In this document: positions 1-38,025 of the stretch, one piece after another | Numbering within the stretch: position 1 is the first letter of the stretch | Layout of the letters: every line of letters starts with the position of its first letter | Assembly (NCBI GenBank): GCA_021372535.1 | Contig: JAJFUH010000127.1 | Location: 1-39,629 of the forward strand | DNA: 39,629 bases | Direction: 5' to 3' | Origin: a bacterium | GTDB lineage: Bacteria > Latescibacterota > Latescibacteria > Latescibacterales > Latescibacteraceae | Translations under genes and position numbers: made by a program | The notes under the pieces: generated by a model | The model's database searches: none | The model's input: only the letters and a program-made list of their open reading frames with translations | Told to the model about the DNA's origin: nothing

Positions 1-137
1 TTGTGATAAACACCATTTACGTGGATATAAGCTGTCAAGGGTCGGCACGAAGTGCCGATTTACATGCCCTTGACAGTAACAAAACAACACATTTCGTTAT
101 AGGGCTCGTGAAAAATATACTTTTTCACAGCCCTCTT
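1..137 (+). repeat. Bipartite double-hairpin repeat, copy A
   Basis: Hairpin 1 has an outer stem CTGTCAAGGG (32-41) pairing with CCCTTGACAG (67-76). Stacked inside is TCGGCAC (42-48) pairing with GTGCCGA (52-58) over a GAA loop, which leaves an 8-nt one-sided bulge, TTTACATG (59-66). Hairpin 2 pairs AGGGCT (101-106) with AGCCCT (129-134) and GTGAAAAA (108-115) with TTTTTCAC (121-128), with one bulged C. The same arrangement recurs at 8418-8551 (reverse strand), 16401-16530 (diverged) and 32566-32620 (first hairpin only). It ends just before the thioredoxin reductase-like gene. The open frame running through it is conserved in copy B only because the DNA is similar; I do not call it a gene. 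Confidence 0.85.
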
Positions 138-8288: not shown

Positions 8289-8337
8289 GATTTCACCATG
8301 GTATTGCTTCAGTGATTAAACAGTGACATCGGAAGAT

Positions 8338-8362
8338 GTCATGCCGAACTCGTTTCGGCATC
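8338..8362 (+). repeat. Short REP hairpin (GTCATGCCGAAC family)
   Basis: A 25-nt inverted repeat in which ATGCCGAA pairs with TTCGGCAT. Related copies lie at 13213-13233, 25060-25084, 38026-38050 (reverse) and, degenerate, 38053-38075. Base changes between copies preserve pairing. It sits about 50 nt upstream of the histidine phosphatase gene and beside double-hairpin copy B. Confidence 0.8.
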
Positions 8363-8417
8363 TATTCCAGATGTCGGTATCATTATGTATTCGCCGGAGC
8401 AATATTTCAAGGAATAA

Positions 8418-8551
8418 GAGGGCTGTAAAAAATGTCTTTTTCACACGCCCTGTAATGAAATGTGTTGTTTTATCGCTGTCAAGGGTATGTAAATCGGCAC
8501 TTCGTGCCGACTCTTGACAGCATATATCAACATACGTGGTGTTTTTCACAA
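8418..8551 (-). repeat. Bipartite double-hairpin repeat, copy B
   Basis: Reverse-strand copy of the element at 1-137. Hairpin 1 is CTGTCAAGGG (8476-8485) against CTCTTGACAG (8511-8520) with an intact inner stem TCGGCAC/GTGCCGA (8494-8510) and the 8-nt bulge. Hairpin 2 lies at 8419-8451. Similarity to copy A continues on both flanks, including a TGTGATAAACACC-like 5' part. It lies between the small anchored protein gene and the phosphatase gene, both on the minus strand, and could separate their transcripts. Confidence 0.85.
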
Positions 8552-8636
8552 GACTTATAATGGGTTATCGGGAATACGTTGCCGCCGGGGATTACCGATT
8601 TTACTATCAGCCCGGTATATGAAAATATCACCGGAA

Positions 8637-16326: not shown

Positions 16327-16400
16327 TCGTCGTAATCTGAACAGCTGAAAATCCACAGGCCATAAAAGTCTTACGAAAAATACGACCTGCCCGGATTCAG

Positions 16401-16530
16401 GCTTTCAGGGTCGGCATGAAGTCCCGATCCCCGAATAATAATCCGGGAACTTGTTTACATACCCGTGACAGCACCCCAACAATACTTTCCATTATCGGGC
16501 GTATGAAAAAGATACTTTTTCACCGCCCTC
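16401..16530 (+). repeat. Bipartite double-hairpin repeat, copy C (diverged)
   Basis: Starts GCTTTCAGGGTCGGCATGAAG like copy A but carries about 34 extra nt, themselves a small CCCG-AATAATAAT-CGGG hairpin, before TTTACATACCCGTGACAGC. Hairpin 2 is well kept at 16497-16528 (GGGCGTATGAAAAA against TTTTTCACCGCCC). It lies between the convergent ends of the kinase (+) and the cyclophilin (-) genes and may act as their terminator. Confidence 0.75.
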
Positions 16531-16550
16531 GTGAACTTCACGTGATTGTG

Positions 16551-32542: not shown

Positions 32543-32565
32543 CTTTAAAAGCCAGATTATAAAAA

Positions 32566-32620
32566 TCGTTTACGGAGAAATAAGCTGTAAAGGGTCGGCG
32601 CTTCATGCCGACCCTTACTG
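32566..32620 (+). repeat. Bipartite repeat, copy D (first hairpin only)
   Basis: GTAAAGGGTCGGC (32587-32599) pairs with GCCGACCCTTAC (32607-32618) over a 7-nt loop. The 5' flank TTTACGGAGAAATAAGCTGT matches copy A (TTTACGTGGATATAAGCTGT). The one-sided 8-nt bulge and the second hairpin are absent. It lies 24 nt after the beta-helix gene and may terminate it. The remaining 190 nt before the protease hold nothing recognised except its SD. Confidence 0.8.
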
Positions 32621-37801: not shown

Positions 37802-38013
37802 GCCGGTTATCCAGTTAAATTAGCTACCATGATTGATCCCTCTCGGCTTCGCCGTTTCCCCCTTATAGAAGAAAGGGGGATGAAAATGTCCCCAAAGTCG
37901 CTCCTCCCTTAAAAAGGGGGGATGCCGCAGGCAGGGGGGATCATATACTATCGAAAAAAAATATCAATTCTGATTTAAAAAGGTTTCTGTGCTTATCAAA
38001 CTGGATAACCGGA
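37802..38013. mobile_element. 212-bp MITE-like element with terminal inverted repeats and apparent target duplication
   Basis: CCGGTTATCCAGTT (37803-37816) is mirrored exactly by AACTGGATAACCGG (37999-38012). Directly outside, after one base on each side, the 8-mer TTCTTTTA occurs at both ends (37794-37801 and 38014-38021), as expected of a target-site duplication. Inside is a CCCCCTT-rich palindromic block (about 37842-37947) related to 39284-39396. There is no reading frame of note, so movement would need a transposase supplied elsewhere. Confidence 0.72.
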
Positions 38014-38025
38014 TTCTTTTATATT

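Follow-up and report, generated by a model that had tools for sequence, protein, structure and literature searches.

A dispersed double-hairpin repeat in a Latescibacterota draft genome as a probable IS1182-associated MITE family

The double-hairpin sequences described here come from the window, the whole stretch of DNA analysed (39,629 nucleotides), which is one complete contig (C127) of a draft genome of 5.35 Mb in 236 contigs. We interpret them as members of a MITE family associated with IS1182, with terminal inverted repeats (TIRs), a 4-bp NTAN target duplication and putative movement in trans, and we assign this reading a probability of roughly 0.92 on the sequence evidence given below. 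The IS1182-family element on contig C167 of the same genome, or a lost near-identical one, would have supplied the transposase in trans, and this transposase would have cut and pasted the non-coding copies into TTAA-like sites, with the hairpins as part of the mobile sequence. A host RNA role for the repeat is not needed. What appeared to be an RNA motif can be described as a delimited mobile element that has ends, a preferred target, size classes and a likely source of transposase. In a literature search, no published description of a MITE associated with IS1182 and targeting TTAA was found.

Ends, target duplications and empty sites

The MITE carries imperfect TIRs, RAGKSYTGTGAWAAA, at both ends, and the right one (reverse complement GAGGGCTGTGAAAAAG) doubles as the 3′ arm of hairpin 2. 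Insertion sites are TTAA-like (NTAN) with a 4-bp target duplication. In 68 oriented two-ended copies, the flanking bases agree at left −4/right +1 (z = 6.0) and at left −1/right +4 (z = 6.7), and the other offsets give no signal, except for weaker values (z = 2.4 and 3.3) at neighbouring positions. Identical 4-mers were observed on both sides of 32 of the 68 copies, compared with 12 expected, and none of 20,000 permutations reached this count. The preferred target is TTAA, and the other matched pairs are CTAA, TTAG, TTAT, ATAA, GTAA, TTAC and CTAT. Of the 42 copies whose left 4-mer is non-palindromic, 14 match directly and none match inverted, which marks the flanking 4-mers as duplications rather than outward continuations of the inverted repeats.

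Two copies, on contigs C98 and C1, have related empty sites, after within-genome "empty site" self-matches were left out. Both sit in other dispersed repeats, whose uninterrupted counterparts (L049 and L042 for the C98 copy, L103 and window 37873-38024 for the C1 copy) have a single TTAA at the insertion place. The 4-bp duplications together with the single-TTAA empty sites are the signature of DDE-type transposition, and by these marks the spread of the repeat is apparently of the DDE type and not of the REP/RAYT type.

Copies in the window

The window copies were placed by alignment and with an nhmmer profile built from genome-wide copies.

1-139, + strand: copy A, short form, left end missing at the contig start (nhmmer E 3.5e-49)
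32-78, + strand: copy A, hairpin 1; its 3′ side contains the unpaired TTTACATG (the "bulge", about 59-66), from the sequence, the structure of 53 copies and per-pair counts
103-135, + strand: copy A, hairpin 2; the right TIR makes up the 3′ arm (sequence, alignment)
C127:118-138: right end of copy A (right-end pattern, 0 mismatches)
about 136-139: right-hand flanking TTAA of copy A
8414-8559, − strand: copy B, complete short form (nhmmer E 3.6e-45)
16363-16534, + strand: copy C, longer form (about 173 bp), diverged (nhmmer E 8.4e-28, alignment)
32546-32611, + strand: copy D, decayed left half with the left end and hairpin 1 (nhmmer E 2.7e-6)

The sequence-only reading had located four related sequences at these places, and all four were recovered by the genome-copy profile. 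Its positions were correct as to location, but the true unit is larger, with a terminal repeat at the left as well as at the right and, outside these, the 4-bp direct duplications. The contig, and with it the window, starts inside the element, hence the start of copy A at base 1, and copy B is flanked by TTAT on each side as a direct duplication. The proposed order of hairpin 1, AACAACAC-type spacer and hairpin 2 was found in copies A, B and C. Copy D is a left half only and is not bipartite; it matches profile positions 2-67 of 151 and is without the spacer, hairpin 2 and the right end. It had also been described as a perfect hairpin after loss of the bulge, but its hairpin 1 contains a 1-nt offset (GTAAAGGG versus CCCTTAC), and the loss of the bulge reflects the decay of one partial copy. 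Copy C is related to the others as claimed, but it belongs to the longer form, with a further hairpin of 26 nt where short copies have the bulge.

Next to copy B, window 8305-8409 belongs to another, unrelated dispersed repeat with at least 43 matches in the genome, mostly 83-89% identical; pieces of it are also found within or next to further MITE copies, e.g. L037, L018 and L040. The segment at window 37873-38024 is a third dispersed repeat, also present at L103, L116 and L094; its copy on contig C1 hosts a MITE insertion.

Copy number, size classes and range

The repeat had been called four-copy, which is true of the window but understates its abundance. The right-end pattern occurs at no fewer than 113 places in the genome (control pattern, 0), so that the copies in the genome are many and not few, and the left-end pattern occurs at 92 places (control matches, 18). 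With copy B as the query, at least 40 scored full copies with 82-89% identity, and 174 candidates, were obtained in its own genome. The fetched loci gave 103 distinct full or partial matches. The 76 full-length matches fall into a short class of 58 (129-148 bp, mostly 146-148 bp) and a longer class of 18 (159-174 bp). The class lengths of 146 and 173 bp count most of the flanking 4-mers; between the 4-bp target duplications, the unit is about 143 bp in the short form and about 169 bp in the longer form. As in MITEs, the repeat is short (under about 500 bp), non-coding and present in many copies. By crude gene calls, 12 of 46 copies overlap the edge of a called ORF or, in a few cases, sit within one.

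Searches of a congener and of two genomes from the family, with copy B or with another copy as the query, gave no match. Because the order, family and genus samples together comprise only these three other genomes, the absence from relatives is weak evidence. An exact pattern gave no match in a named genome collection, from which the window's own genome is possibly absent.

Very long forms of the MITE, about 490-850 bp, were observed at L037:33-878 and L049:48-537, with the extra repeats GAAGGAAGTAACATCT and AAAATGGGGGGTTGCC inside hairpin 1. At L114:305-338, there is a 34-bp element composed of hairpin 2 alone, with two right-type ends and the flanks CTAA and CTGA, which is possibly the smallest mobile form.

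The unpaired segment of hairpin 1

The claim that the bulge is kept through divergence holds. Across 53 short copies, the mean identity is 0.969 for TTTACATG, 0.966 for the outer stem, 0.912 for the loop, 0.845 for the spacer and 0.754 for the left subterminal region, and the bulge is exactly TTTACATG in 41 copies. The further step from a kept bulge to a recognised structure fails as stated, since TTACATG persists in the longer form, which has no simple bulge. There, the 26-nt hairpin CCCCGATTAATGATTCGGGGACATGY is located exactly at the bulge and is followed by the same TTACATG. In the copies of 490-870 bp, further repeats occupy the same point, and TTTACATG is kept before the 3′ arm. Because the longer form fills the bulge point with a hairpin, the "bulge" is mobile-element sequence retained at the edge of the 26-nt indel by which the short and longer forms differ, the short form being inferred to be a deletion derivative. 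What looks like a "conserved bulge" can be left behind by an indel inside a mobile repeat, which calls for caution in structure-based readings of repeats.

The conservation of the bulge can be attributed to common descent, since the copies are recent relatives. However, pure descent does not predict that hairpin 1 and the bulge are conserved above the spacer and the left subterminal region, and this counts against it as the whole account. The sequence-only reading was to be abandoned if the copies were few, without covariation and random in the bulge. It survived that comparison, but the same outcome is expected from copies of a single mobile element. We consider it unlikely that hairpin 1 with the unpaired TTTACATG is a selected structure, so that the MITE family would need a folded internal motif as well as its ends, for instance a subterminal hairpin in single-stranded DNA bound by the transposase or a host protein, or an RNA processed by RNase III.

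An IS1182-family element as the putative transposase source

Two genes in the genome encode DUF772 and DDE_Tnp_1 domains, and one of them lies in the one IS1182-family element of the genome.

C167:209-1723: IS1182-family element, ends 90% complementary, TTAA on both sides
C167:311-1657: IS1182-family transposase gene, 448 aa (NCBIfam NF033551, 288.5 bits, cut-off 270; Pfam)

The right end of this element, read inward, is AAGTCTTGTGATAAAGTCTGTA, and many MITE left ends are identical to it over 22 of 22 bases; 20 of the 57 scored left ends match it at 20 or more of the 22 bases. It thus provides the related autonomous element with common ends that is expected of a MITE family. At the right end of the MITE, GAGGGCTGTGAAAAAG shows a poorer match to the ends of the C167 element than the left end does, and most resembles AAGGCCTGTGAAAAAG, the left end of a relative on L137. 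Because of this difference, the immediate source could be another IS1182 element, or one now lost. Movement of the copies by the C167 transposase is inferred; it appears well supported by the left end and less so by the right end.

The L137 relative (JAPKXV010000357.1, 898-2415) is 87% identical to the C167 element at the DNA level and has matching terminal repeats, but its flanking 4-mers do not match. Its contig is filed as a MAG of the archaeon Methanoregula from Lac Pavin, which points to either horizontal transfer or mis-binning. In a 64-genome sample of the phylum, no close copy of the transposase was found outside its own genome, the one relative (39%) being in the congener, and plasmid records contained no relative at 60% identity or above.

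IS701 elements also use 4-bp targets, of the YTAR type. IS701 was the candidate source tested first, and no DDE_5 gene was found. An IS5-type gene on C99 belongs to a different element, and no repeat resembling the MITE ends was reported around it. At L134:100-208, the C167 IS1182 element abuts the right end of a MITE copy with a TTAA common to both, possibly as a result of insertion into that copy's duplicated target.

Alternative readings of the hairpins

The suggestion of a RAYT- or nuclease-type substrate was right in that the repeat appears to be the substrate of a mobile element. REP/REPIN-like palindromes, if mobilised by a RAYT (TnpA_REP) or by a single-strand transposase of the IS200/IS605 type recognising the bulged hairpin, would also be abundant, and the bulged hairpins recall the REPs of Escherichia coli, in which TnpA_REP requires a stem mismatch (PMC8266576). 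The earlier note had called for a search for a RAYT/TnpA_REP or IS200-like gene. One Y1 transposase gene is present, but with 132.6 bits for IS200 (cut-off 55) and 22.1 for REP transposase (cut-off 80) it is an ordinary IS200 gene, far under the REP-transposase cut-off, and no RAYT gene was found in the genome. The Y1 gene is flanked by its own hairpins, which are unrelated to the MITE, and a GTAG-type tag at the hairpin base was not seen. REP/REPIN elements moved by RAYTs make no target-site duplication, whereas the repeat has TIRs and a 4-bp duplication; with the single-TTAA empty sites and the left-end match to IS1182, these features make RAYT- or IS200-type mobilisation extremely improbable. 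A function as bidirectional transcription terminators dispersed between genes, which would suit intergenic hairpins with strong folding, is scarcely more credible. Neither hairpin is followed by a T-run, in line with the earlier remark that the repeat is not a plain terminator, the copies lie mostly between codirectional genes by crude gene calls (25 of 33, with four convergent and four divergent), and the target duplications indicate mobility.

A further reading is a functional RNA, in which selection would maintain hairpin 1 and its bulge for recognition in transcripts by a regulatory protein or RNase III. In its favour, folding is strong on both strands (z = −6.0 and −4.6), two-sided changes occur at 8 pairs of the hairpin arms compared with 2.5 in shuffles, the bulge is conserved equally with the stems, and RNase III cleavage of other MITE transcripts has been published (PMC10969869). 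However, 11 of the 19 two-sided changed cells stem from one subfamily difference at a single pair, another hairpin replaces the simple bulge in the longer form, and the repeat is found in one genome only. In addition, the window has no Rfam match at gathering thresholds, and palindromes of mobile DNA can persist by other means. The evidence that the palindromes are maintained is modest, and the compensatory changes are alike compatible with selection on DNA, selection on RNA and arm-to-arm correction, and do not separate them. Under the MITE reading, any of these three may underlie the fold-back structure and the modest compensatory change, and we regard an RNA function as improbable.

Relation to known systems

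The MITE resembles IS1182 insertion sequences (NF033551) in its TTAA-type flanks and in the 22 bp of its left end that equal the right end of the genome's own IS1182 element, whereas it has no transposase gene and shares the ends alone. A 4-bp duplication is also made by the published IS1182 element ISPse1 (PMC3281130). REP/REPIN sequences with a RAYT are likewise repeated imperfect palindromes with unpaired stem bases, but differ in the points discussed above.

Correia elements of Neisseria are also short palindromic MITEs, with different ends and a different host. Their transcripts are cut by RNase III (PMC10969869), a Correia feature, whereas the MITE described here is known at the level of DNA. 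Chunjie of Geobacter uraniireducens and QMITE2 of Coxiella burnetii are similarly short, non-coding and mostly intergenic, with a stable fold, and occur in tens to about 100 copies with several size classes and truncated copies (PMC10969869). The sequence, the TIRs and the duplication (here 4 bp, NTAN) differ, and the hairpins of the present family are internal or subterminal instead of forming one long TIR hairpin.
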